A stretch of 64,000 nt of DNA from Diphasiastrum complanatum. Lineage: Eukaryota > Streptophyta > Lycopodiopsida > Lycopodiales > Lycopodiaceae. Made by a program: the position numbers and the translations under genes. A model generated the notes under the pieces. That model ran no database searches and was not told the DNA's origin. It saw only the letters and a program-made list of their open reading frames with translations. Positions 6,702 to 62,561 of the stretch are shown piece by piece; the stretch's first letter is position 1; the number at the start of each line of letters is the position of its first letter. Location of the stretch: the NCBI GenBank assembly GCA_029204225.1, contig CM055097.1, positions 1,719,414 through 1,783,413 of the forward strand, read 5' to 3'.

Positions 6702-6728
6702 TTGATACCAATATGTCTCTCATTTAGA

Positions 6729-7546
6729 TGTGCATAGTTTCTCTCATGTATCTAATGGAGGTGCAAAGGTGTGTGTATCATTTAAAGATGATCATTCAAG
6801 ATATGCTTGGATCTATCTTTTGCCTATGAAGAGTATGGTGTTTGATTCCTTTGTGAAGTTCAAAACTCTAGCTGAAAATCAACTTACCACTAAGATCAAA
6901 GTATTAAGATGTGATAATGGAGGAGAGTACATCTCCAATAAGATGATAGAGTTTTGTAAATCTAATGACATTAAGAGGGAGTTAACTTGTCCTTATACCC
7001 CTCAACAAAATGGAGTGGCCGAGAGAGAAAATAGATCTCTTTATGAGTGTGCTAAGGCCTTGAGGCTAGATGTCTCTCTTCCAAAACCATTTTGGGGTGA
7101 AGCCATTACATGTTCTAATTTTTTGTGTAATAGGTTTCCAAACAAAGCCATCAGAGGGATCACATCATATGAAGCTCTATATGGTAAGAGGCTGAATTTC
7201 AAAGATTTGAAAATCTTTAAATCTCCTTGCTATGTTCACCAATCTTTGGAAACAAGGCAAAAGGATGATGCTACATCACACAAAGGGATATAGAGTCTTC
7301 AATCCCATCACTAAAAAAATCATAGTGATTAGAGATGTTTTATTTGATGAAGGACATGGTTCTCAAGTGAATGAAAGTGCGTGTAATCATCTTGATTCCA
7401 AGGATATTGCTAGGATTGAGGAGGAGCAATCAAATGATGAAGATCTTGAGGATCCGCCTCAAGACTCGAGAGCTCCAAGGAGGTCTTCAAGGGCAAGGGC
7501 CGAGCCATCAAGGCTCACATATGCTGCAATAGAGGTTCATTTATGA
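6729..7546 (+). pseudogene. copia integrase relic
   Basis: The frame from about 6730 carries the integrase catalytic core: FKDDHSRYAWIYLLPMKS, then the second catalytic aspartate in LRCDNGGEYISNK, then the glutamate region PQQNGVAERENRSLYE. The C-terminal part continues to LKIFKSPCYVHQSLE, where the frame breaks near 7260. The next frame (GYRVFNPITKKIIVIRDVLFDE, to an acidic linker and RRSSRARAEPSRLTY) carries on to 7546. Gag, protease, the first catalytic Asp region, RT and RNase H are absent. The sequence is close to the integrase of the 25-kb copia family. Confidence 0.85.
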
Positions 7547-20488: not shown

Positions 20489-21465
20489 TAATCTGAAGAT
20501 CTAGTTGATGATTTTATTGATGAGGTCACTAGTGACTACACATCGAATAATGTGGAGGTTATGCATATTCCTATGTCTCATATATCCACTCACTCCACCA
20601 AACTTGACATTGGTCCTGCTTGCATGGATTTTGATCATCCCATAGTGTCATCACACATAGATTGTATCCAATCCACATAAATCATACAGATTCTTCTATC
20701 TTACCTACTCCATTAAAAAAAAGAACACGACCTGGACGTATTTTGACAAGATTTGAAAACGAACAAAGTCTTTTACGTACTATCGACTTGTCCAAAAATG
20801 TTTTAAATTCGTTGACCGAGTCTTCCCTTCATCCTCATATACATGCATTAGTTAAGCCATTTGATAGAAAGAAATCTTTATGTTGGCTTGATACGGTACC
20901 ACTACACCTATGTGGGACATCATTTTCATATTGGGGCCATATGTACATAATCAAGTCTAGTGAGCAATTTCCTAATGCCGAATTAGGTTTATTTTCCTTG
21001 ACTAGCATTGATGTCCCTTTGAATAGTGTTGTCACAGTAATGCCATATGCCAGACCTCAATACAATTGGGGTGATTGGCATGCTCTATGTCGCCACCAAT
21101 GGAGAATACAAATATATGGTTTAAATTCCAATGCTTGTTCTTTGGAAGAGAGGCACATGCAAGGAAAAAGAGTTTCAAAAGCACATCGTATGTACATCGA
21201 TGGGCGTCCAAAAATACATGGAAACATCGCTGCATATATAAATAGTTCTATTTGTCACCCTTCATTAACTAATTTTGACTTTGAAGAATGCACCAATGGA
21301 AAAGAAGATTATTTCCCTAGACATGTGAATGCTACATATGTAATGGTTTGTGCGATCAGACCTAATAAATGTGGTGAAGAACTATTCATCAACTATAGCC
21401 TCAATCGTCCTCTACCAAGATGTGTACAAAAAGTTTTGAGCCAAGCACAACCATGTGCATTGTAG
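20489..21465 (+). pseudogene. SET-domain-like protein gene, frameshifted
   Basis: SET domains transfer methyl groups to lysines, mostly on histones. The main frame (20662-21465, up to 267 residues) shows an N-terminal SET-like block AELGLFSLTSIDVPLNSVV (cf. G-x-G-L-F) at about residues 106-124. Near residues 189-199 is GNIAAYINSSI, in the place of the family's N-x-x-R-F-I-N-H-S. Near 242-249 is GEELFINY, in the place of G-E-E-L-x-x-x-Y. The NHS motif reads NSS, so catalysis may be lost. The frame has no good ATG: it opens after a stop at 20632, and the listed start is TTG. A second frame, 20489-20682 (EVTSDYTSNNVEVMHIPMSH), runs into it and ends at the overlap. I read this as one frameshift or a missed intron. 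There is no clear tie to the neighbouring transposon debris. Confidence 0.6.
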
Positions 21466-25556: not shown

Positions 25557-27017
25557 TATTGTTATTCAAAAGACTTTGCCAAGTTTGATGGATCTTCAAG
25601 AGATCTTGATCAATGAAGAATATAGGCTTCAAACAAGAGCTGGATCTACATCGCCACTTCAAGAGGATGCTATGTTCACAAAGGGAAAACCAAAAGTAAG
25701 TGGTATAAAGGGTAAGATCAAGTTTATGCTTCTTCAAGTGGCAAAAAGAAGGACAGATCAAAGCTCAAGTGCTTCTATTGTGGCATCAAAGGACACTTTG
25801 CAATTGAGTGCTACAAGAAGAAGAGAGATCAAGGAGACAAGCAAGGTAATCTAACTCTTGATGAGGATGGTTTGGATGTTCAAGATGCAAATGATGATGC
25901 TTTTGTGATGTCTTCATGTATGCTTGCTAATGATGGAGATCTAGATCCTTGGTGGATTGATAGTGGAGCAAGTTCACACATGACCTTTCACAAAGAGTAC
26001 TTCACTTCTTTGTTGGCATATGGAGATGACAAGAGGGTGATCTACACGGCCAATGATGGTGAGTGTTCAATCAAAGGGATTGGCACAATTCCTATTTCTC
26101 TCTCTACAAATAGGAATGTTCATTTGGAGGATGTCTTGTTTATTCCATCTATTACCAAGAGTTTACTCAGTGTGAACCAAATGCTAAGTAAAGGCCTCAA
26201 GGTGGAGTTTGATGGAGATGCTTGTTTGATCAAAAGGAAGGATGTCTTGATTGGAAAAGGTAAAAGGCAAGGGAAATTGTTCAAACTAGATGCTTGTGTT
26301 ATTGCTAACCAAGTTGGATGTGTTGCAAGGCAGCAAATTTCTATTCAAGAGGTTTGGCACAAAAGGATGGGACACCTCAACTTCAAGTCATTGGAGGTAA
26401 TGGCAAGGAAGAAGGTTGTGATTGGTCTTCCAAGTTCCTTAAGTAGTGTCAAGCATGTTTGTGAGTCTTGCGCTTTCTCTAAGTCAGATAGACTACCTTA
26501 TACTAGATCTATATCTAGATCTACAAAGCCTTTTCAGCTTGTACATTCGGATATTCATGGATTTAATACAATTAGCAATAGTGGAGCTAAGATGTATGTA
26601 ACATTCATTGATGATTTTAGTAGATTTTGTTGGATCTATCTACTAAAGAGCAAGGATGAAGTGTATGATGTCTTTGTCAAGTTCAAGAATGCAAGGGAGA
26701 ACCAATTTTTCACAAAGATCAAGTGCTTGAGAGGTGACAATGGTGGTGAGTACATATCTAACAAGCTCAAGGCGTTTTGTGTTGAGCATGGGATCAAGAG
26801 GGAGTATACAACATCAAGGACCTCACAACAAAATGGAGTGGCTGAAAGGAAGAATAGGACTTTATGTGAAAGTGCTATAGCTATGAGGTTAAGTGCTAAT
26901 CTTGACAAACCATATTGGGATCAAACTTTGTTGTGTGCCAATTTCTTGTGCAATAGGTGGCAGAGTGCTATTTTTGATGGAAGGACATCAAGAGGAGGCC
27001 GAGTGTCAACTTTCTAA
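25546..27017 (+). pseudogene. copia gag C-term, protease and integrase
   Basis: The first frame (to 25854) carries the gag end; the pol frame continues from about 25735 to 27017. In order: zinc knuckle CFYCGIKGHFAIEC (CX2CX4HX4C) near 25770-25810; aspartic protease WWIDSGASSHMT near 25950; the GAG-pre-integrase segment VWHKRMGHLNFKSLEVMARK with CESC near 26355-26470; and integrase with LVHSDIHGF, LRGDNGGEYISNK and [16 protein letters not shown], so the catalytic D, D and E regions are all present. A deletion of about 13 nt relative to the 60-kb copy, near 25685, and a TAA in the pol frame near 25712 break the gag-pol join. Integrase ends prematurely with a shift near 26960, where CNRW leads into unrelated codons. 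Confidence 0.85.
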
Positions 27018-27029
27018 GAACCTTTGGAT

Positions 27030-27504
27030 GCACATGCTATGTCAACATTACTCTTGATGATAGGACCAAGGAGAATCCATCTTCAAGAAGAGATATTTTT
27101 GCTGGATATAGTGAGGTGAGTAAAGCCTATAAGGTTTACATTCCTTCTACTAAGAAAGTGATTGTTGGTAGAGATGTCATTTTTGATGAGGGGAACATTC
27201 CAAAGGTGTCTTCAAGCATGATTGATGGCAGAGTGGATGGATCTAACATTCTTGATGTTGATGAGAAGGATCCTACTTTGGATGGTGGTGATGATGGACC
27301 TTCATCAAGTCAAAAGCCAAGGAGAACATCAAGAGAAAGACAAGTACCTTCAAGGCTCACATATGATCAAAAGGGTAAGCAAGTAGTTTCTGGAAACTAT
27401 GTTGCTTTCCTAACCTCTTTGGGTGACACTACAAGTGTAGATCAATCAAGGAAAGAAGAGGAGTGGATCCAAGCAATGGATCTTGAGTATCAAGCTCTTA
27501 TGAA
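27030..27504 (+). pseudogene. copia integrase C-terminus and RT N-terminus
   Basis: After the frameshift near 26960 the family sequence resumes: FGCTCYVNITLDDRTKEN near 27025, SKAYKVYIPSTKKVIVGRDV at 27119-27178, an acidic linker, and PRRTSRERQVPSRLTYD near 27325. The RT entry segment is EEEWIQAMDLEYQALMK, ending at about 27502. At this point recognisable RT stops abruptly in mid-motif, while the frame stays open to 27922. Confidence 0.75.
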
Positions 27505-28375
27505 GTGTGGAACATCTTTTGGAGGATCTTCTTGTGTACATGGAGCTATGCAAGTGGATGGATTTTATCTTGCTGTAAAGTCAAGTATTGGATCTGGAAA
27601 ACAAAGTTTTTTCAATGTTTTTGATGGTCAAGTTGAAGATCAAGAGGTTGATCTCAAAGGGCTTCAACTAGTCAAAAGGGAAGTTGGCAATTTGGAGCTA
27701 GTCAAGAGCATCAAAGGAGAGGTAATTGGAAAAGGCGTTATGGATATGTTTTTACAGCATATTGAATACTCAAGTAAGGTCAAAGGAGCAGTAAGGAAGT
27801 GTTGTTCAGGTTTACTTTACTTGTTCTATCTCATGTTTGAGCAATTTCATGTGGATGTGTGCAAATTGTCAAGATATGGTAAAACTAGCTACATTGGTGA
27901 TTTGATGTTGGATTTGTACTAGCATTATTGGCTGATTTTGCTGATGGAAATGAAGCTATTGGAGGCTCATTATGTCACTCATTCATGGTCAAGTCATCAA
28001 GGCTTGATGGCATCTCATGGCAAGATGGAGATGGAAGCTCATTCATGGAGTATCATGGTGGATACAAGGCAACAAAGGACAAAGGAGGAGGAGACTTGCA
28101 AGCAAATGTTGATCACTCACATTTATTGTTTGTTTGCTATATTTTTCCAAAGAGTTCAGAGTTGGAAACATGGTGGAATCATTTCATTTACATTCTATTT
28201 GATTCTTCATGTTCTAGTCACATTTTGACATGTAGAATTGATGTAAAAAATAGTGAAGCATCCCAAGTGGACACTATTCTTTATATCAATTATGGTTGTT
28301 TCTATTTTGAGCATTACATGATCATTGAAAGGAGATATATCCTTAGGAAGAATATCATTCTTATGATGGATCAAA
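27505..28375 (+). other. unrelated insert replacing RT and most of RNase H
   Basis: This stretch of about 0.87 kb separates the RT entry segment from the RNase H end. It shows none of the copia RT marks (no GLKQ.PRAW block, no YVDD). It is mostly open: one frame to 27922 (with HGAMQVDGFYLAVKSSIGSG), then another from 27928 (with GGSLCHSFMVKSSRLDGISW). Base composition is like its surroundings. It could be captured host sequence, part of another transposon, or strongly decayed RT. I do not recognise a protein in it. Confidence 0.5.
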
Positions 28376-35862: not shown

Positions 35863-36428
35863 AACAGGAAGTATCATCTCACAAGAACATGGCCAAAATA
35901 TTTCTATAAATATTCTAGTTCCCTTCCATTATAAATACATGCTTATACTTGTCTTAGTTGGGATTCGAAAAGCTGGAACAATCCTAAAAATAAGTATGAC
36001 ACTATGAATGTGGGACTTAGCGTCATACAATGACATATACTTCGAGTTCTGTGGAGCCTCCTTGCTGGAGTGTGGCTTCAGCAAGTCGTAGAACATCACT
36101 CTCCTTCTCATAACACGAGTGTGAAACAGTGAAGGTAAGACCCATACCCTGACAGATACTTGCAGTTCCCTGGAGCCTCCTTGCTGCTTTGTCTTAGCAA
36201 GCCCTACAAAACTAATACCCAGGAACAGTCTGGCTTGCAGCGCCGGCCTTCTATGATTTTGATAAATTCACATCATCAACTTTCCTTGCAAAGCTTCTCG
36301 AAAGCACTCTCTTGTGGAAAGCCTGTAATTTGAACTTCTTCACGTGTTTTTATACAGATAGAGTAGGTGTATTTTGCCTGCAGTGCATAACAGTAGAAGG
36401 GCGTCTTCAAACCATCAACAGGTGTATA
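35863..36428 (-). other. probable 3' untranslated region of the PPR gene
   Basis: This follows the PPR stop codon on the minus strand. It contains an imperfect duplication: 'agttc.gtggagcctccttg' near 36046 and a close variant near 36168. A TTTATTAATAAA palindrome near 35850-35861 offers AATAAA on both strands, so this gene and the plus-strand relic could share a polyadenylation region. Confidence 0.35.
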
Positions 36429-39044
36429 CTACCAGTAATCCCCACATGAACATATACCGTCTACAAAGTGATGAAATCTGTTAGCGTCTCTTACGACCAA
36501 CGACCTCCCAGCAATCCTAGAAATATATTTGCTGGCTGTGTGGCAGTCTTCACACACTCTCAGATTCTTAAATATATGGAGTTGACTTCCAGACGGGGTG
36601 CTGATGAGTCCAAATGCTATGGCCAGTCGCTCACTGTGCTGACAAGATGAATGACCTCCCTCCTCCCTGTCACGTATTTCAAAGCGTTTATCTGGCACAT
36701 ACCCTGCTTTTTTCATCTGCAAAGATAACTTCCTCAGTTCTTCTTGTATTTCTATGATCCGAGGATGCTCAGTGTCTGCTACAAAAAACCTATGAACTTC
36801 ACCATTAACCTCAATCCAGGTACACCCTGCCTCTTTGTGCAAATGTCTTTCCTTCCGCAACTTCTGAACCTTGATTCTGCTCTCCCAATTCCCGGCAGCA
36901 GCATAAACATTTGATAGCAACACATAACAGGAGGCATTATGAGGATCAAGTTCAAGAACTTGCAGTGCAATACGCTCTCCCATCTCCACATTGCCATGAA
37001 CTCGGCAAGCACCCAGTAAGGCCATCCATATAGGTATCTCAGGCTGATGAGCCATCCTATTGATCATGTCCTCTGCCTCATCCAAATAGCCTCCTCGACC
37101 AAGAAGGTCGACCATGCAGCTATAGTGCCCCACTGTTGTTGCAACATCAAAAACCGGACTCATGAGTTCAAAGTAGCAATGACCTTCATCAACAAAACCC
37201 GTATGACTACATGCTGATAAAAGGGTGACAAAAGTTGCACTATCCATCTGCACTTGTTTACCCATTTCATCGCAAAGTCGGAGTGCTTGCTTCCCGAGGC
37301 CATGAATGCCATACCCATCAAGCATGGCATTCCAGGCTGTTAATGTGAGGATTGGCATACTGTTGAACACCCTTTCTGCTTCATCTATCCTCCCACATTT
37401 ACTGTACATTTCTATCAATGAACTAGCCACAAGAACGTCAGATTCACAGCCATATTGAATGACCTTCAAATGGACATAGCGTCCCTCTTTAATTGCTGCA
37501 AGGCTAGCGCATACATGAAGAACGCTTACAAAAGTGACTGCATCTCCCGCTACTCCTGCCTGCTGCATCAATTTGAATAATTTCAATGCGCTTTTCTCCT
37601 CCCCAAGTTTGGAATGTCCCAAAAGGATGGCACTCCAAGAAACCAAATCCTGTGTTGGCATATTATTGAATACTCTGCATGCATCCACTATGCTGCCACA
37701 ATGTGCATACATTTCACACAAACAACTCCCAACAAAAAAGTCTGACTTATACTTGCTCCGACTTATCAGCATGTGAGTATATGTGCCAAAATCCAGTTCT
37801 AACAAACGAGCACATGCATTAAGGACATATACGTAGGTAGTATTGTCTGACTCGACCTTTTCACGCTGCATCTGTTGAAATAACACCAAAGCTTTTTCTT
37901 CTTGACTGTTCTTTACACAAGCTCCTATCATGGCATTCCAAGAAACAGTATTGCAATCTGGCATGCTATGAAAAACTTGAGTTGCATCCTCTAGGCTTCC
38001 ACATTTGCTGTACATGTCAATGAGAGAACTCCCAACAAAAACATCAGACACATAACGTTTTTCAATGACCTGTGCATGTACGCACCTGCCTTCTTCCAAT
38101 GCCTCTGTGCTAGCACATGCATTGAGGACAGCCATGAAGGTCACCCTGTCTGGATTCACCCGTTCCAATTGCATCTGTGAAAACAAGCTCACTGCCTTCT
38201 CTCCTTGATTACAGTCCGTATATCCAACAATCATTGAACTCCAAGAGACCACATTGCGGGTACTCATGGTTTGAAAAACTTCGATTGCATCCTCTATGCT
38301 ACCACATTTGTTGTACATATCAACAAGACAACTCCCAACAAAAATATCATACTCAAAACCGTATCTAATGACATGTGCGTGAATATGCCTCCCCTCTTCA
38401 AGGGCCGCAGAGCTTGTACATGCACTGAGGACATTGACAAATGTGATGATGTCTGGCTGCACATCTTCTCGCTGCATCTGAAAAAATAGTTGCAATGCCT
38501 TACTTCCTTGGCCACACTTGACGTAACCCATAATCATGGTACTCCAACAGACAACATCAGGTATGGGCATATTCTTGAATACTTTACATGCATCCTCTAA
38601 ACTCCCACACTTGCTGTACATGTCAATCAGGGAATTGCAAACAAAGATATCAGACTTGCTTCCACTTTCCATGACATCTCTATGTATCCTTCTGCCTATT
38701 TCCAACTCTAACAAACCAGTGCATGCCTTGAGGACCTGAACATAAGTGAAACTGTCAGGGTAAATATCCTCCTTTTGCATTTCCTCCCAACGTTCCAGGA
38801 CCTGTCTGTGTTGCCCAAATTTCATGAATCTTGTCAACATAGTGTTCCAGGAGAACACACTTCTCTGCACCGTACCTGGAAGCAAACTTACCACCTTCGC
38901 CTTTACCCAGTCAGGTGTAGACCTTCCATTAATCCACAGAGCAACATCGGTCTCTTTGTGCTTGAAGTCTGGGTATTTTGCTGTTCTCTGGTTGCATATT
39001 TTTTTGAAACAAATAATCAGACAAAACGATTTGCAGCCTATCAA
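36429..39044 (-). CDS. DYW-class PPR protein with an N-terminal PDF motif (main exon)
   Basis: PLS-class PPR proteins bind organellar RNA, and their DYW domain is a zinc-dependent cytidine deaminase for C-to-U editing. The frame has 871 codons before the stop. The numbering below uses this frame. Residues about 20-60 hold the second half of a PDF motif (AKYPDFKHKETDVALWINGR). PPR repeats run from about 63 (SVFSWNTMLTRFMKFG) to about 650, with many copies of IDMYSKCGSLEDA-like units. E-type repeats follow (ALLGACRVHGNVEMG), then DYW with HSERLAIAFG, CEDCHTASKYIS and the terminal CSCGDYW, so all zinc and catalytic residues are present. The first codon of the open frame is TTG and a TGA lies four codons before it, so there is no upstream ATG. 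An acceptor CAG at 38988 fits an exon start at 38987 in the correct phase. The PPR part is intronless, as is common for this family. Confidence 0.93.
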   Translation of the reverse strand: MIGCKSFCLIICFKKICNQRTAKYPDFKHKETDVALWINGRSTPDWVKAKVVSLLPGTVQRSVFSWNTMLTRFMKFGQHRQVLERWEEMQKEDIYPDSFTYVQVLKACTGLLELEIGRRIHRDVMESGSKSDIFVCNSLIDMYSKCGSLEDACKVFKNMPIPDVVCWSTMIMGYVKCGQGSKALQLFFQMQREDVQPDIITFVNVLSACTSSAALEEGRHIHAHVIRYGFEYDIFVGSCLVDMYNKCGSIEDAIEVFQTMSTRNVVSWSSMIVGYTDCNQGEKAVSLFSQMQLERVNPDRVTFMAVLNACASTEALEEGRCVHAQVIEKRYVSDVFVGSSLIDMYSKCGSLEDATQVFHSMPDCNTVSWNAMIGACVKNSQEEKALVLFQQMQREKVESDNTTYVYVLNACARLLELDFGTYTHMLISRSKYKSDFFVGSCLCEMYAHCGSIVDACRVFNNMPTQDLVSWSAILLGHSKLGEEKSALKLFKLMQQAGVAGDAVTFVSVLHVCASLAAIKEGRYVHLKVIQYGCESDVLVASSLIEMYSKCGRIDEAERVFNSMPILTLTAWNAMLDGYGIHGLGKQALRLCDEMGKQVQMDSATFVTLLSACSHTGFVDEGHCYFELMSPVFDVATTVGHYSCMVDLLGRGGYLDEAEDMINRMAHQPEIPIWMALLGACRVHGNVEMGERIALQVLELDPHNASCYVLLSNVYAAAGNWESRIKVQKLRKERHLHKEAGCTWIEVNGEVHRFFVADTEHPRIIEIQEELRKLSLQMKKAGYVPDKRFEIRDREEGGHSSCQHSERLAIAFGLISTPSGSQLHIFKNLRVCEDCHTASKYISRIAGRSLVVRDANRFHHFVDGICSCGDYW

Positions 39045-39129
39045 AAGGAAGTATCATTCTAATAAGTACAGTGATCAATGATCATTAAATACGTCATCTT
39101 AAAATTGCTTGTAACTATCAAGAGCTCAC

Positions 39130-39219
39130 CTTGTCAAATCTGTGATCCCACCACTTTGAAGGTTCTGAAAAAAATTGTCGCCAACGTTTTTCTGGAACAA
39201 TTTGCTTGCACATCATAAA
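39130..39219 (-). CDS. upstream exon: first half of PDF motif 2
   Basis: The 90-nt stretch is preceded by TTTTGTAG and followed by the donor GTGAGC. It encodes 30 residues including EKRWRQFFSEPSKWWDHRFDK's core blocks WRQFF and KWWDHR. This is the W-x-x-F-F...P-x-x-W-W-D-x-R half of the PDF motif of OSB proteins. It ends in phase 0 and joins without a shift to 38987, where AKYPDFKHK gives the second half. The match across the splice is the main evidence that this exon and the PPR exon form one gene. Confidence 0.7.
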
Positions 39220-39284
39220 CTACAAAATAATACAATACGACTCTGAAAAACTGTGCATTCTCATTCATTTTGCAGGTCTTCCAC

Positions 39285-39316
39285 ATAATTTCCAATATTC
39301 CACCCAAGTTGAATCT
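39285..39316 (-). other. possible 32-nt mini-exon
   Basis: After the acceptor CTGCAG, this stretch (EIQLGWNIGNY when joined) would restore the phase between the exons at 39397-39535 and 39130-39219. Its donor GTGGAA is weak. It is speculative. Confidence 0.2.
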
Positions 39317-39396
39317 CTGCAGTTCCACAATCCAATAAACCAAATGGAATTGTGATAAATGTTTAGAAAACAAAGTAAAAAAATCTTGATAAAGAC

Positions 39397-39535
39397 CTTG
39401 TTCTGCTTCAGAGCTTGCATAGGTGTCCCATCTTCTTGTCACTCGAGAAGGGTCCAGCAAAGTGTCGACCCACAATGGTGGCATCTTATACCTCTTCTCG
39501 GAATTTGGGCACCAAAAATCCTTTTGTGGGGAGCT
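39397..39535 (-). CDS. upstream exon: second half of PDF motif 1 (diverged)
   Basis: The 139-nt segment follows a GGCAG acceptor and encodes SSPQKDFWCPNSEKRYK and PPLWVDTLLDPSRV. It matches the layout of the motif's second half, with DF, an LW pair and a following V-rich end. It starts in phase 0, the phase in which the exon at 40982-41055 ends. The donor after it (GTCTTT) is not a strong one, so the 3' boundary is uncertain. Confidence 0.5.
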
Positions 39536-40527
39536 CTGCCACCAGTATCAACACGAATCAAGTGATACCAATCTCAAATTTACGCAAACCTTTAACTGCC
39601 ATCATTTTACATCAAAACACAGAAAAATAAAAAATAAAAACCTATTTAATGTGCACTTGAAAGAAAAAGCCAGTCCAACAGATGATAACATCATGAATCA
39701 ATACAATTACAAAGTAATGCAAAAGCAAAGAGGCAAAATCTTGTTTCTTCCAGAAAAGTATCACTTACTCATTTTACCAGGTTAGACACAAAGTCATGAA
39801 GCATTTCCATGTCATGCATTTTGTATGAGCATATCTTCTCTCAGAGTAACAAAATAAACCCAATGCAACTTAAATCAAGAAGTGGTAATTCCGTTCTTGT
39901 CTCTCCAGGCACAAAGAAAGACCACCATGCCGCTTCAGTGGCTGATGGTTTTTGATGAGGCAAAGTCTTTAAAGGCTTTGCTTACTCATTCCTTTCTAAG
40001 AATGCTAAAAGTGGCCCAGTTATCAACTGCGAACAGAAAAGCTGTAGCTTGTGACAGTAGCCAAAAGGTTGGGTTGAATTAACCATTGGACGAAACCATT
40101 TTGGAAGGAATCGGCCTTTTCAGAATCGGAAGAATTGATGGTTCAGGCGTTTCATAAAAGAATCAGTCAATTTTTCTAAAAGCCAATTCTTTTACAAAAA
40201 AATGTTAAAAAAACTAGAAAACACCGATTTGTCTTGCATTTCGATAGTTTACTTCTTAGTACTACTTAAATATTACAGAATCATCACTACAATGGCCAAT
40301 CTCAAGTGCTGACTCTTGAGTGCACATAATAATTGACTAAATTTGTCAGAATTCAAACCCAAGTATAACCACAATTCAAAACTGAAAATGACCATGATTC
40401 AAACTTAGAAGTTAGAAATAATCATGCTAGATATTTAACATTAAAAACAAGATTCAAACTCAAATATAACCCCGATTCATTATCCATAATAGAGTCACAT
40501 AAATAAGCCACGCAACACATTTAGATT

Positions 40528-40553
40528 CCCCCCCCCCCCTCTCTCTCTCTCTC
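40528..40553. repeat. poly(C)/(CT)n junction
   Basis: Twelve C residues are followed directly by a (CT)7 tract, inside the presumed intron of the PPR chimera. Confidence 0.9.
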
Positions 40554-40981
40554 AAACGCTATGCTGCAGCAATGTGGCTGCTCCTTGGACCTCAATAGCC
40601 GCAGTTGAAATGCCTAATAAGACTTTTAACCAACTAGTAAGGGAGAGCATTTCAGGTCTTTATGTATCACTTGTGAGAGGCACTGAAAATTCATGTAGTC
40701 ATGCTGGCAGAACCACATTTTGGCTGATGAGAACCAGTTTTTGGCATTTTATGTTACTCCACTCTGAGTGCCCTCACAATAACCTCAAGATCAGCATGGC
40801 ATCTGATGGCAAGGTGTTTCATTCCTTTACAGTAGATAATGAAAGTACATATAAATCAAACTTCCTGTTCTTCTGCAGTCATGCCCAATCAAACTAAGGA
40901 ATGAAACATCTCATGCCGTCACAGATAAGAAAAATGGTTACTTACAGAATGAATTTTTTCATGATCTCTTAAATTGCTCAC

Positions 40982-41055
40982 CTTGTCAAATCTGTTGCTC
41001 CACTGTTGCAAATAATCCTGAGCAGATTTCAGCAGAGATACATTCTTCTTCTGAC
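40982..41055 (-). CDS. upstream exon: first half of PDF motif 1
   Basis: The 74-nt exon has a good acceptor (pyrimidine-rich, CTCATGTAG) and donor (GTGAGC). It encodes KNVSLLKSAQDYLQQWSNR then FDK. The ending NRFDK parallels the HRFDK ending of the exon at 39130-39219, and both are followed by the same donor, so the two exons look like copies of one half-motif. It ends in phase 0. Confidence 0.55.
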
Positions 41056-43465: not shown

Positions 43466-44620
43466 CTTCATGTACTAATCAAATCATCCACGTACAACAC
43501 AATGAACACTATCTCTGAATCTTGCCTTAGAATGTAAAGATCAGGATCAGCATCACTCTTTACCATTCCCCTTCGCTTAAAGTGTTCATCTATCTATGCA
43601 CGAGTACCACGCCCGTGGTGATTGCTTCAATCCATAAATAGCTTTGTTGAGCTTACAAACAAGGTGCTCTCTCCCTGGTTCAATAAATCCTTGAGGTTGT
43701 ACTAAGTACACCTCTTCATCCAGCACTCCATTAAGAATAGCATATTTAACATCCATTTGCTGGATCTTCCAACCATAGAAAGCAGAAATAGCAATGACAG
43801 AACGTATAGTTACCATCTTAGCTACGGGTGCGAAGGTTTCCTCAAAATCAATACCTTCCTGCTGCTCAAATCCTCTCACAACCAACCGTGCTTTGTATTT
43901 GTTGAGTTGCTTGTATATCCATTTGCAAGTGATAGGTGTCTTACCATCAGTTAGCTCAACCAAGTTCCACGTCCTATTTTTTGATATAGCTTCCATTTTT
44001 GTTTCCATAGCTTCACGCCACTCCTCGTGCTCCTTTGCTTTATCAAAAGTTTTTGGTTCTTGAGCCTTGAGCACAGAACCCATTAGGGCTAGATTCATCT
44101 CTAATCTTGCAGGAGGTTTTCGATTTCTACTTGATCTTCTAGGCTCTCCCTACTCACTAGATTCGGGAGTATCTCCCTTCTTTGCACCATCTGTGACTGA
44201 TAAGTACCATTTAGGTACTCTCTTGGGAATTTCAGCATTGGGCTTACCTTTGTCCAATGGATTTTCTGTATCAAAATCCACTTCTTTCTTGACCTGTACT
44301 TTCGCTCCCTCATCAAAAGGTTCAGTGATTACTTCAGATTGTTCACCTCGGCCCATCTCGTCAAATGTAGCATCTCTAGAAATTACAGGCTTCTATGCAT
44401 TTGTATGCCTTGGCCTTCACATCATATCCAAGGAAAATACACTTGATAGCTTTTGCATCCAATTTCCTTCGTTTCTCATCAGGAATATGAGCATAAGCAT
44501 CACAACCAAATACTCTCAAATGAGAAATACTAGGTTTCTTTCCAGTAACAACTTCATGAGGTGTCTTACCTTCCACGGATTTTGTAGGACACCGATTCCA
44601 AGAGACTACTGGCCCTAGTT
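43466..44620 (-). pseudogene. copia integrase C-term to RT relic
   Basis: On the minus strand the start is integrase C-terminus (WNRCPTKSVEGKTPHEV, then HLRVFGCDAYAHIPDEKR, ending FLGYDVKAKAYKC), broken by a stop. An acidic linker and the RT follow: HEEWREAMETKMEAISKNRT, KWIYKQLNKYKARLVVRGFE, EETFAPVAKM, QMDVKYAILNG and LNKAIYGLKQSPRAWY. Then come a stop and the active site VLYVDDLI near 43480. The piece is cut at 44620, where an LTR on the opposite strand begins. It belongs to a copia family different from the others in this window. Confidence 0.87.
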
Positions 44621-47356: not shown

Positions 47357-49060
47357 CCTCCCCTTAATGTGGATCCGTGAATGCCTTGATCTTCAAACTA
47401 AGCAATGCACAAAACTTTTTGTGTGCATTAACACTTAATGCCTTTATAAATATATCTACAACCATGTCCTGCATTCTGCAGTACGTTAAGCTCACCTCCT
47501 TGTTGAGAACCTTGCCCCTGATGTAGTGATATCTCATTTCAATGTGCTTACTCCTAGAGTGAAATCCAGGGTTGGCCGATAAGACAATAACACTCTGATT
47601 ATCACAAAATAAAATTGTAGGGCTGTACTGATACAGATTAATGTCTGACAGTAAATTTCTTAACCAAAATGCTTCTTTAATAGATTGAGAAGCAGCAATG
47701 TATTCTGCTTCTTTAGAAGAGAGAGCGATAGAGGTTTGCATACGATTGTTCCATGAGATAGGACCGCCGTTGAAGAAGAATGTAAATCCAGATGTGCACT
47801 TACAATTGTCTACATCTCCTCCCCAGCTTGCATCAGAATATCCATTGAGCTGATGAAGATTGTCGTTGCTGACATCTCCATAATATATGCACTGGTCCAT
47901 GGTAGCTTGAATATACCTCATGACTCTTATGAGAGCCTTCCAATGGGTAATGTCAGGATTGGCCATATATTGGCTGAGTGAGCTTACAACAAAAGAAATG
48001 TCTGGTCTTGTACAGACCATTGCGTACATGAGATATCCAAATATCGATCGATAAGGATACTCTCTCATCTGCTCCTCTTTGTGCTTGGTCTGGGGACATT
48101 GGTCCTTTGACAAATGCAGGCCTGGATCCATCAGTGAGTGAGCTAACTTACAATTCATTAGATTGTATATGTTAAGAACATTGTGAAGATACCTTTGTTG
48201 AGTGATATAAATCAATCGTCTCGCTCTGTCTCTATGGATATGAATGCCCATACAAAAGTGAGCTTCATCTAGATCAGTCATGTCAAACTCTAAAAACATC
48301 ATCTGCTTAGAATTCGGTATTGTTGCTGAAAAGTAATGTATCATCCACATATAAGGTGATGATAATGAAAGATTGCTGCACTGACTTGGAATAGATGTTG
48401 CAATCAATAGTGCTTAATTGGAAACCTTGTTCAATAAGGAATGTGTTGATCCTTTGAAACCAAGCTCTGGCAAACTGTTTCAAGCCGTAAAAAGCTTTGT
48501 GGAGTTTACAGACATGATTCTTCATACCATCCAGAACGTATCCTTCAGGCTGGATCATGTAGATGTCTTCTTGTATAACTCCATTTAGATAAGCTATTTG
48601 TACATCAAGTTGATGTACTTCGAGGTCGGCCGCTGCATCATAAGACAAGAGGGCTCGGATCGAGGGCTCAGATCGAACTACTGGACTAAAAGTCTCCCTG
48701 TAGTTGACGTTGGGGATCTGAGTGAATCCTTGTGCTACTAGTCTTGCCTTCCTTCGATCAATTGTTCCATTGGCATTGTACTTGATCTTGAAGATCCATT
48801 TGCAATCAATGGTATTGCAGCCAATAGGAGCTTCGACTAGTGACCATGTCAGGTTCTTGATAAGAGAGGAATACTCTCTGTCCATAGCTTCTCTCCAAAG
48901 ATTAGAGTCTGGTTGGCTGAGTGCCTCTTCGACTGTCGTCGGTTCCCGTATCAAAATACATGCAGACTCAAGAGTGTACCTTGTGGGTTGTGTGCACACT
49001 CGGCTTGATTTTCTAGGTGAAAGTGACTGATGAACCATTCTTGGGACTTGTTGCTGGGTA
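47357..49060 (-). pseudogene. copia RT and RNase H
   Basis: RT (49038-48307) begins with TTVEEALSQPDSNLWREAMD and has CKWIFKIKYNANGTIDRRKA, LDVQIAYLNGVIQEDIYMIQ, LHKAFYGLKQFARAW and an intact active site LYVDDTLLF. A frameshift near 48310-48400 separates it from the next frame (48407-47364), with CMGIHIHRD, the connection segment, RPDISFVVSSLSQYMANPDI, RNase H GYSDASWGGDVDN and SSKEAEYIA, DNQSVIVL and SKHIEMRYHYIRGKV. The last residues reach the polypurine tract. The RNase H D, E and D residues are visible. Only the RT/RNase H shift and few other lesions break this part. Confidence 0.93.
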
Positions 49061-50423
49061 CAGCAACGTCTTCGTCTGATTCGCTATCAAATAGTGGGTC
49101 GACAATGGACATGCCTAAACCAGAAGCTCGGATTGTCATGTCAATGGCAGGTAATGAAGGTTCTTCTAGAGCAATATCCTTGGCTTTGATGTTGACAAAC
49201 TGATCCTCGATAAAGACTATATCCCGGCTATACAAGATTTGTTGGGTATCAGGCCCATACAGCTTGTATATATTATCAGATGAAGTATATCCAATCATGA
49301 TGGTCTTGAGACCTTGGAAGTCCAATTTCTCCTCTTGTCTTTTGGGATCTACGCGTAGGCAACGCATCCGAACACTCTTAGGTTCTTCACAGAAGGCTTA
49401 GAGCCTATCCACACCTCGTGGGGTGTTTTGCCTGAGAGGGCCTTGGTCGAACATCTGTTCCGGACGTAAGCTACAATGGAGACAGCTTCAACCCAGAATG
49501 TTCTGGGCAGCAATGCATGCGCTAGCATACATTTGGCTAATTCAACCAGGGTACGGTTCTTCCTCTCGGCTAAGCCATTAGATTGAGGACTGTAAGGAGT
49601 GATGAATTGCTGCTCAATGCCTTGCTTTGGCAGTACTCCTTAAACTTGGTAGAGATATATTCTCCACCATTCTCTGATCTTAGGGCCTTGATCGTCCTTC
49701 CAGTCTCCTTTTTTACATGCTCCTTGAAGATTCTGAAGCAATTGAAGGCTTCTAATTTCTTCTTTATAAAGTACACCATAGTCCTTCTGGAAAATTCATC
49801 AATAAAAGCTATAAAATACTTTGCATTCTTCAACGAAGGATTTTTCATCAGGCCACAAATGTCTGAATGTACAATGTCTAACAATCCTCTAGCAATATTT
49901 GATGGCTTGATTTAAATGGTTTCCTAGTCTGTTTACCAACTAGACAATCTTGATGGACAAGTAACTCGACTTTATCACGAGGATAGTCGAGATCAAGAAC
50001 AATAGATTGTCTAGACATTTGTTGTACAGCAACATGATTCAAGTGACCAAGTCTATAATGCAAAAATAAACTTTTATTTGCATGAATAGAAGTACTAAGC
50101 GCCTGACTAGAGACAGAAAAGCAATGACTTAATTTATACAAGTATCCGTGCCTCTTTCCAAGTGCTAGGATCTTGCCTGTCCTATCAACTACTTTGCACT
50201 GATCACATTCAAATTTTACTCTATGTCCTAGATCTATGATTCTGCTTATAGAAAGCAGATTCATAGATAAATTTGGTACATATAGGACTTTAGAGAGTAG
50301 CTTAGATTGATCATTTGCAAAACTCAATCTCACAGTACCTTCACCTTTAAGCTTGTGCGCTATTATCACCAAGGTGAACATATTTATTGGTACCGTAAGG
50401 TGTATAGGACTCAAACAAGCCAA
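48951..50423 (-). pseudogene. copia GAG-pre-integrase and integrase
   Basis: The frame 50423-49878 ends protease and carries the GAG-pre-integrase segment (LFLHYRLGHLNHVAVQQMSR) with a decayed zinc pair. The integrase core (49884-49570) has DIVHSDICGLMKNPSLKNAK and then KALRSENGGEYISTKF. The second catalytic Asp of the usual D-N-G-G-E-Y is Glu here. The frame then shifts, losing a clean QNG...E region in one frame ('caatctaatggc' remains near 49575). The C-terminal part at 49367-48951 reads KTIMIGYTSSDNIYKLYGPD. Integration activity is not expected. Confidence 0.85.
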
Positions 50424-51330
50424 TGAGGCTGGTCATGTGTTGAGTGGCTCTGGAATCCAGGAACCAAGAACTGTCACTGGATGCTTCTTGATGGCTGGTC
50501 ATGAAGGCATCATGATCTGCTTCTTGAATAGGCTGTGGAGCATCTGTAAATGCATTTTTCACTTGATTCGACTGCCCCTTGCTATTGTTCTTTGCTTGCA
50601 GTATTCGGCAGTCTTTAATTTCGTGGTTGTTTCGCTTGCAGTATCTGCAGAACAGCTTCTTCTTCGTCTGCACATTTGACTATTCTTTGTGTTGTGCTGA
50701 TTTCTGGTCTGGCTTTGATTGCTTTAGGCCTTTCTTCTTCTGTCGCTGCTTAGTCATGCTCTTGTTGGTGTACAAGGCATGAGAATCAGCTGAGGAACTT
50801 GAGGCTTCGTTCCTTCGCGTGTCTTTCTACAACAACATAGTAATGACTCTTGAAAGAGTCAGAGACTAGATGTGTCATGATGATCATCACCCATCTGTCG
50901 TATGAGCTTGGCAATATTGTAAGCAGTTGCATCACTGCGTCTTGATCATCTATGACAGATCCGACCATTTGCTTCAGCAGGTTCTTGAATTGGTTGATGT
51001 AATCTGCAAGGAATCACCATTCGCCATCTTGAGGGATTAAAATTTCTTCCTAAGATGTAGCTTGGAAGCTATATTTCGCACTTCGTATAGTGTGCTCAAG
51101 ATGTCCCAGACTTCTTTTGATGGCCTTGGATACATGGCCGATCTGGGTATCCGTAATGTTGAGGATGATCAACGCGAAAGCCTTTCCATACTTCAGCTTC
51201 CATCTAGCGATTGTTGCTTCGGGTTTCCCTTTTGCACCTGCAACAACGTCATATAATTTTTTAGCCATTAGTACAGTTTTCATCTTAAATTTTCACAGAT
51301 GTTAATTGGCTCCATCAAGCTTGTCCATGA
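50347..51330 (-). pseudogene. copia gag, zinc knuckle and protease
   Basis: Gag begins near 51325 (MDKLDGAN, then stops) and continues KMKTVLMAKKLYDVVAGAKG from 51283 to 51050, with more stops, then QMVGSVIDDQDAVMQLLTIL from 50968. The zinc knuckle FCRYCKRNNHEIKDC (CX2CX4HX4C) is near 50630-50650. The protease site reads SWFLDSRATQHMT near 50455: the conserved DSGA has become DSRA, so the protease is probably dead. Confidence 0.87.
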
Positions 51331-60278: not shown

Positions 60279-61786
60279 ATGGCAACCTCAATTGGAGTCA
60301 TGTTGGAAGCCAATGATAGGCTTACCTCAAGTAACTACTCATTGTGGAAATTGAGGATGAAATCACTTCTTGAGATGAATGATGTTTTGGATATTGTTGT
60401 AGGTTTGGAGGAGAGACCAGCAACACAACAAGATCAAGTGAGGTATGATAAGAGGGCCAATAAGGCTCTACACATGATCAAGATGAATGTTACCAATGAG
60501 CTTCTCAAGGAAGTTGGTAAGTGTACTTCATCTAAGGATGCTTGGGATTCATTGAAGAAGCTTTATGAATCCAAGTCCACTTCTAGAGTGTTGACTCTAA
60601 AAACGCAAATCTTTTCTTGTTTGTAAAATAATATAGAAAGTCCAAGTACTTTTGTTCTGAGGATGAAAGCATTGAATGATGAGTTGGCTTGCATTGATGA
60701 GAGCATTAAGGAAGGAGAGCGTGTTCAAGTGATTCTTAATGGATTGTTGAATGCTCATGCTAACATTGTTCAAAGTATTGCTATTCAAAAGACTTTGCCA
60801 AGTTTGATGTATCTTCAAGAGATCTTGATTAATGAAGAATATAGGCTTCAAGCAAGAGGTGGATCTACATCGACCACTTCAAAAGGATGCTATGTTCACA
60901 AAGGGCAAATTCAAGGGCAAAACCAAAAGTAAGTGGTCTAAAGGGAAAGATCAAGTGGATGCTTCTTCAAGTGGCAAAAAGAAGGATAGATCAAATCTCA
61001 AGTGCTTCTATTGTGGCATCAAAGGACACTTTGCAAGTGAGTGCTACAAAAAGAAGAGAGATCAAAGAGTCAAGCAAGGTAATCTTACTCTTGATGAGGA
61101 TGGTTTGGATGTTCAGATGCAAATGATGATGCTTTATTCATGTATGCTTGCTAATGATGGAGATCTAGATCTTTGGTGGATTGATAGTGGAGCAACTTCA
61201 CACATGACTTTTCACAAAGGGTACTTCACTTATTTGTTGGCATATGGAGATGACAAGAGGGTGATCTACACGGCCAATGATGGTGAGTGTGCAATTAAAG
61301 GGATTGGCACAATTCATATTTCACTCTTGACAAATAAGAATGTTCATTTGGAGGATGTCTTGTTTATTCCATCTATTACCAAGAATTTGTTTAGTGTGAG
61401 TCAAATGCTAAGTAAAGGCCTCAAGGTTGAGATTGATGGAGATGCTTGTATGATCAAAAGGAAGGATATCTTGATTGGAAAAGGTAAAAGGCAAGGGAAG
61501 TTGTTCAAACTAGATGCTTGTATTATTGCTAACCAAGTTGGATGTGTTGCAAGAGAGCAAATACATATTCAAGAGGTTTGGCATAGAAGGATGGTACACC
61601 TCAACTTCAACTCATTGGAGGTAATGGCTAGAAAGAAGGTTGTGATAGGTCTTCCAAGTTTCTTAAGTGGCATCAATCATGTTTGTGAGTCTTGTGCCTT
61701 GTCTAAGTCACATAGACTACCTTATACTAGATCTACAAAGCCTTTTCAACTTGTACATTCGGATATTCATGGATTCACTACAATTC
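60279..61786 (+). pseudogene. copia gag, protease and truncated integrase
   Basis: Gag starts at ATG 60279 (NDRLTSSNYSLWKLRMKSLL) and meets a stop (TAA) at 60624-60626, after which the same frame continues (LRMKALNDELACIDESIKEG) to 60932. One inserted base near 60870, compared with the 25-kb copy, shifts the frame. Pol then runs from 60832 with zinc knuckle CFYCGIKGHFASEC, protease WWIDSGATSHMT (intact D-S-G-A), GAG-pre-integrase VWHRRMVHLNFNSLEVMARK and the first integrase aspartate LVHSDIHGF. At 61786 the element is cut and gypsy-type LTR sequence follows. RT and the 3' LTR are missing. Confidence 0.92.
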
Positions 61787-62561
61787 CAAGAATATTCTTC
61801 CAAACCGATTCTTAATAAGATTATGAGTTCCGAATTCTACAATCAACCAACTAATTAAAGACTATTATAACATTCATCTTTAACAATATCAACTTTTTAC
61901 AATCTCCTAGAACAACATCTAGAGATTTCAAAGTTTTACGGAATTCCCAAAATTCAGTTTATCATTCTTGGCATCATTAGGATCCGGTATCCAATTGAGC
62001 TCACTAGGATATTATCACTAATGAATAAAGTCTATTTCTCAACTGAGAAATACTTATCCAAGAAATCAATATGTAAAGACCACTAGGGACAATCCCCTAA
62101 GATGAGGATAGGAAAAACACAAGAGAGATTGTGGAGCAAAACCACCCAACCAAACCTAGATCCCTTCTGGAGAATCCTCCTGGATCTAGCCCCCAAGCCA
62201 TGACAATGTGACAGCAAGAGGAGAAGAGCTCATCAGGTAACCTAGACCAAGTCGTCGATGGGATAATCTCTACCTCAATATATAGAGAGTAGGATCCAGT
62301 GCATGAACACATGCAATCCCCATGCAAGTCAACTAAAAATAGGTTACAACTCTACATGCATACCTCCTGCCTATATCAGTCACACGCACATGCACTACTC
62401 CATATGTCTCAATTAGAGTGTCTGGGTCCTCTCAAGGTCATTAGTCACCAACTGGCCTTGACTTGGAATTAAATCTAGGCGTGACCAATAATCTCGAACA
62501 CTGGAGGGCCGACTACCATATTAGAACTATTCTAGGTCCTTAACCAAATATGGCCGTAACA
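61787..62561 (-). repeat. gypsy-type LTR, truncated
   Basis: On the minus strand the LTR starts TGTTACGGCC at 62561, directly after a polypurine tract ('gagaggaagaa', 62562-62572). The same junction appears on the plus strand at 43341-43366. The LTR runs down to 61787, where it meets copia integrase sequence. The stretch 61787-62240 recurs at 63543-64000. Confidence 0.6.

Follow-up and report, generated by a model that had tools for sequence, protein, structure and literature searches.

OSB-type PDF motifs precede predicted PPR-DYW editing factors in a large gene family of Diphasiastrum complanatum

We describe a minus-strand gene in a 64,000-nucleotide stretch of the Diphasiastrum complanatum genome (contig CM055097.1 of assembly GCA_029204225.1, positions 1,719,414 to 1,783,413; hereafter the window). 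An uninterrupted frame of 874 residues (36429-39053) encodes pentatricopeptide repeats (PPR), an E motif and a DYW deaminase domain, and the repeats are preceded by a PDF motif, a module known from chloroplast and mitochondrial proteins that coat single-stranded DNA. The motif is divided between two exons. From 5' to 3' of the gene, in window coordinates, the parts are:

39130-39189, minus strand: PDF motif, first half, KRWRQFFSEPSKWWDHRFDK, closing its exon; the donor GTGAGC follows (37.4 bits)
38988-39129, minus strand: intron splitting the PDF motif, 142 nucleotides, phase 0, GT..AG, with the 3' end ..GCAACCAG
38892-38987, minus strand: PDF motif, second half, RTAKYPDFKHKETDVALWINGRSTPDWVKAKV, with which coding resumes past the acceptor at 38988 (60.3 bits)
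38847-38891, minus strand: linker, VSLLPGTVQRSVFSW, running without an intron into the first PPR, of which its final residues form part
36999-38861, minus strand: PPR repeats of PLS type (PPR_2 5.5e-94, PPR 9.3e-74); 5' edge approximate, from the translation
36810-36998, minus strand: E motif (PF20431, 8e-17, residues 686-748)
36429-36704, minus strand: DYW deaminase domain and stop codon (PF14432, 8.3e-36, residues 784-874), ending in CSCGDYW

A PPR-DYW gene with a split PDF motif

Matches above the Pfam cut-offs for PPR_2, PPR, E_motif and DYW_deaminase place PPR, E and DYW in that order along the 874-residue frame, while Eplus_motif stays below its cut-off (20.2 vs 24). The best PDB match is a synthetic PPR-DYW protein (2.8e-229). 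The deaminase zinc site of PPR-DYW proteins follows the rule HxE ... CxxC together with a DYW end, and the window translation reads HSE, CEDC and a terminal CSCGDYW, agreeing with both. The predicted protein thus resembles PLS-class PPR-DYW editing factors in its PPR array, its E motif and a DYW deaminase with signature residues; it differs from them in that one to three PDF motifs precede the repeats, here and among its relatives.

Neither Pfam nor PDB contains a match for the PDF motif, whose identification rests on the OSB-like (organellar single-stranded DNA-binding) genes of this genome and on a consensus of the motif. To score it we built profiles of each half from paralogous loci (23 and 24 rows) and left the window's own rows out, with 60 dinucleotide-preserving shuffles of the window as a chance control. 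The first half scores 37.4 bits against a shuffle maximum of 11.9 and the second 60.3 against 13.6; because these scores far exceed the shuffle maxima, both halves are beyond chance. The initial annotation had read the long frame as opening with the second half of a PDF motif, with the first half in an exon just upstream bearing good splice sites and matching phase, and had proposed a profile search. That search agrees with it, as do the GTGAGC donor, the AG acceptor, the phase 0 intron and the in-frame run from 38987 through PPR, E and DYW. For the 5' edge of the first-half exon there are two candidates, a CCAG acceptor at 39192 and TGTAG at 39220, the latter giving an exon of 90 nucleotides.

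A second, more diverged pair of half-motifs had also been proposed further upstream:

40982-41041, minus strand: upstream PDF copy, decayed first half, VSLLKSAQDYLQQWSNRFDK, then GTGAGC; tentative exon
39440-39537, minus strand: possible second half of that copy, as first proposed

One half of this pair has support. Scored with a matrix of first halves, the upstream first half (..QQWSNRFDK, then GTGAGC) ranks second among 6562 GT-followed window positions, with a score of 5.4 vs -8.9 for the third; it stays below 7.5 bits by hidden Markov model (HMM), and the paralogues L031 and L043 carry a weak first motif copy at the matching upstream place. The proposed second half was dropped, since the profile fails to recognise 39440-39537: its best frame ranks 154 of 8022 by ungapped scoring and falls below 7.5 bits by HMM.

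PDF-PPR-DYW loci across the genome

We searched an assembly of 1.745 Gb in 5176 contigs; the matches counted below are the best of longer lists and include apparent haplotype twins, so that family counts are rough. A DNA search with 36300-39200 returned many PPR loci, with long matches at 64-70% identity; a number of these loci match the first-half exon as well. Searched at protein level, the 52-residue motif drew 878 first-look candidates, 150 of which were scored. Neighbourhoods were counted over 146 listed PDF rows (four first-half-only rows excluded), 150 listed DYW rows and 47 hand-picked PPR rows. Among the matches listed, 54 of the 146 PDF rows have DYW or PPR sequence on the same strand no more than 8 kb downstream, none has it on the wrong side and one has it on the opposite strand; conversely, PDF sequence lies upstream of 35 of the 150 DYW rows. 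PDF matches and matches to an OSB query, merged within 3 kb, define at least 176 places, two of them OSB-like exons, and DYW or PPR sequence lies downstream of 63 of the 176 and upstream of none.

All 20 of the loci that best match the window motif (the window and likely twins counted) have PPR sequence after it on the same strand. Selection from the other end gives a similar picture: PDF is present at 8 of 10 loci chosen by PPR similarity, window included, and the nearest PPR paralogue, L010 (53% identity), also bears it. Motif copy number reaches three complete pairs in L061 and three second halves each in L014 and L046. Many DYW or PPR loci occur in pairs with equal scores (for example C3/C3100; C1:71.77/71.85 Mb; C14:50.21/50.33 Mb), which may be unpurged haplotypes or recent duplications.

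A sample chosen by DYW rather than by PDF comprised the top 20 distinct loci of the DYW list with open frames of at least 600 residues, extended by 12 further DYW loci without a listed PDF match, hand-picked down the list. Among the top 20, six have a listed PDF match upstream and seven of the other 14 proved on scanning to have PDF within 1.9 kb upstream, making 13 of 20; on scanning, six of the 12 further, apparently PDF-negative loci bear it too. Half of the sampled DYW loci without a listed PDF match (13 of 26) nonetheless have PDF upstream, in every case on the DYW strand. This sample is skewed to high DYW scores, and the scan reached 1.7-1.9 kb upstream, beyond which a PDF motif would escape it.

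The junction is shared in detail. In 44 rows compared, representing 34 motif pairs and ten rows without a recognised first half, 32 of the 34 pairs have GT immediately behind the first half and all 34 have AG immediately ahead of the second; in the two exceptions, L014 and L069, the GT lies three bases further on. The introns that split the motif measure 83-370 nucleotides across the family. In the window's subfamily the motif passes through an intronless linker like AAMxxGTxQRSxFSW into the first PPR. A second subfamily reads ..NPSWVKEKM-ASMALGHIQS.. at this point, and stops and splice-like sites, judged by eye, put an intron before its PPR exon.

These comparisons bear on the origin that the initial annotation had suggested, namely a single chimera formed at this locus when an intronless PPR copy was inserted into an OSB-like gene. 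The PPR part is indeed one exon, joined to the second half of PDF without an intron, as such an event would leave it. Yet the junction and the splice position are common to many loci, and the nearest PPR paralogue has PDF too; a retrocopy insertion at this locus is contradicted by the junction shared across paralogues, and we regard a one-off chimera as hardly tenable. Because architecture, splice position and linker are common to many paralogues, the fusion is older than the family's expansion. Many related genes predicted in the same genome are built alike, and the arrangement is therefore no isolated accident. In a large family of this genome, predicted PLS-class PPR-DYW factors are preceded by one to three PDF motifs of OSB type. 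We consider this architecture, and the family, nearly certain as read from the assembly.

The motif itself is constrained. Across 34 spliced PDF coding rows (some loci giving two or three), forming 561 pairs, codon diversity is 0.45 at third positions vs 0.24 and 0.21 at the others. The ratio of nonsynonymous to synonymous substitution (dN/dS) has a median of 0.23 and is nowhere 1 or more in the 87 of 561 pairs with dS of 0.05-1.2. Eleven residues are invariant (W, F, W, D, P, D, F, H, L, W, P). Purifying selection acts on the PDF codons and, because dN/dS is low, diversity is concentrated at third positions and invariant residues persist, the motif is very probably translated and kept.

OSB-like genes and evolutionary history

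OSB proteins are described as an OB-fold with one to three PDF motifs, and the PDF motif of AtOSB1 is reported to suffice for binding of single-stranded DNA (PMC6963530). In the D. complanatum assembly, SSB-like OB-fold exons with OSB-looking translations occur at three places, several of them under the Pfam cut-off. We take these to be OSB-like, a judgement made from their likeness to OSB sequence. At two of the three, a PDF second-half exon lies 12 and 33 kb downstream on the same strand, located with an OSB query sequence; at the third, no PDF was found among the matches listed. From their order and strand we infer that OB and PDF exons would at each of the two places form one OSB-like gene. 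Both second-half exons have their acceptor at the same position as in the PPR-linked motifs, and the profile built from PPR-linked motifs scores them at 57.9 and 46.7 bits; no first half was found in the 335 and 387 nucleotides examined upstream of them. The shared exon and acceptor position sustain the earlier attribution of the window motif to the OSB type. OSB proteins and the PPR-linked genes are thus alike in having PDF in one or more copies and, for the two OSB-like genes, in the place of the second-half acceptor; they differ in that no OB-fold was found with the latter, and in that the short tail after the OSB motif is replaced by PPR-E-DYW.

The OSB-like second-half exons end at a stop 33 and 23 residues past the motif, and this raises the question of whether the PDF and PPR exons of the window might belong to separate transcripts, the former ending in an OSB-like mRNA. 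A donor-like GTAAGT lies directly after the window motif (38891-38886, minus strand) and could permit an alternative transcript of this kind. It is not a conserved donor: the other rows of the junction comparison lack it and carry other letters after the motif, mostly GCTGC-like. The window's subfamily, moreover, reads on through a similar linker into the first PPR, and no OB exon was found near, so that we hold separate transcripts to be very improbable.

For the history of the fusion we built a tree from the C-terminal 200 residues of 31 DYW proteins, 25 with PDF, five without (none within 1.7-1.9 kb) and one of unknown state. PDF carriers form two groups, one of 13 rows including the window (support 99/99) and one of 12 rows (99/97), with the rows lacking PDF between them. 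A single origin of PDF carriers is disfavoured by the approximately unbiased test (p 0.016 for 31 rows, 0.017 without the row of unknown state). This suggests two PDF captures, or one capture with losses, since with five rows lacking PDF loss and gain are not distinguishable.

Function and significance

The reading that we prefer, to which we give a probability of about 0.6, is that the gene encodes a PDF-PPR-E-DYW organellar editing factor in which PDF serves as an added nucleic-acid contact, perhaps for tethering at the nucleoid. Given what is known of the family and the intact signature residues, the PPR array would select the target transcript and the DYW domain would deaminate C; on the predicted protein, the window gene is probably a working organellar C-to-U editing factor. 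Moss PPR-DYW proteins are reported to carry out editing in E. coli (PMC6397227). The PDF module would add a second, sequence-unspecific contact, and binding of DNA by this protein may be expected by analogy with OSB proteins. In the least certain step, PDF might keep the protein at the organelle nucleoid, close to exposed single strands or nascent RNA. Nucleoid localisation is reported for many PPR proteins (PMC10226603), and because this is so and the AtOSB1 motif is reported to bind single-stranded DNA, we favour a position near nascent RNA; the tethering role itself stays tentative, at somewhat less than even odds.

We rank equally with it the alternative that the module now binds RNA or contacts proteins, so that it would raise affinity for the transcript or recruit editosome partners. 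The host protein acts on RNA, no OB-fold was found alongside PDF, and conservation of the motif would fit any nucleic-acid or protein contact. But no result here prefers RNA over DNA, and the OSB-like second-half exons fit the same profile as the PPR-linked ones.

Several observations weigh against the PDF-PPR-E-DYW reading. No start codon or targeting peptide of the window gene was identified, and a tblastx comparison among 18 upstream stretches (best E 0.2) revealed neither a conserved first exon nor other upstream-exon conservation; one of its two best matches shows the decayed first copy of the motif in L031 and L043. The PPR relatives L015 and L016 have no PDF in the 1.5 kb examined, and 13 of 26 sampled DYW loci have none within the scanned distance; editing in general therefore does not need PDF. 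As for the OB-fold, the SSB family has 13 candidates in the genome and none in the window (a weak test, the OSB-like exons being themselves under the Pfam cut-off), and OB peptides of the OSB-like genes have no match below E 2.9 across the 64 kb of the window or below E 0.5 at the PDF-PPR loci, where flanks were short against the OB-PDF spacing of 12 and 33 kb. Neither search thus places an OB-fold upstream of the window gene, and with no such exon near it the usual partner of PDF is missing. A 12-base target pattern, read by eye with the PPR code, has 646 matches in the genome vs 624 for the reversed pattern, and no target can be named from it. The assembly seems to be without an organelle genome, because its single COX1 match is a 90-position piece. 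Some family members are broken, among them L045, which has a stop codon shortly past the motif.

Those broken siblings, the decayed upstream PDF copy and retrotransposon remains around the locus also give some substance to the view that the window gene is a decaying, unexpressed copy among dispersed duplicates. Set against it are the 874-residue frame free of stops, the intact DYW signatures, and intact motif halves and splice sites, and we judge decay improbable, though worth keeping in mind. L045 (C18:22817771, plus strand) and L038 (C18:22972348, minus strand) are closely similar PDF-PPR loci, of which L045 looks like a decaying duplicate.

Apart from the gene, we noted in the window copia-type retrotransposon remains that flank it on both sides (RVT_2, rve, gag_pre-integrs, Pol_BBD, SH3_retrovirus) and one further open frame:

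43586-44149, 47364-49083 and 49878-50432, minus strand: copia-type remains
25716-27922, 60829-61815 and 6706-7293, plus strand: copia-type remains
20635-21465, plus strand: open frame of 276 residues that matches a SET domain (1.2e-6) and may belong to a methyltransferase gene as one of its exons

Elsewhere in the assembly, one 22-base match is repeated 14 times in C1:23.10-23.88 Mb, often with a few kb between copies, suggesting a clustered repeat.

We know of no described editing factor with PDF motifs. A full-text literature search, judged by listing or abstract and covering few subscription journals, gave no description of a PDF-PPR-DYW protein among the matches listed. PPR scaffolds have reportedly been engineered to bind single-stranded DNA, a likeness to the genes described here; those designer proteins differ in being engineered, and the start of the abstract mentions neither PDF nor DYW (PMC5992170).

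Taken further, the PDF-PPR-E-DYW reading would describe a class of editing factors, its PDF exons captured perhaps twice, that are anchored to single strands at the nucleoid and couple editing to transcription, a generalisation that we regard as doubtful. Its extreme form, in which the DYW deaminase would also act on organelle single-stranded DNA, is very unlikely indeed. With PDF at no fewer than half of the DYW loci sampled, a module on editing factors that binds single-stranded DNA would, if true, be a major change to the picture of PPR-DYW proteins. Two questions would become testable: whether nascent RNA is edited at the nucleoid, and in what way plants with heavy editing cope with thousands of sites. 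The family also provides PDF modules outside OSB proteins, for a motif that has no Pfam or solved-structure match.

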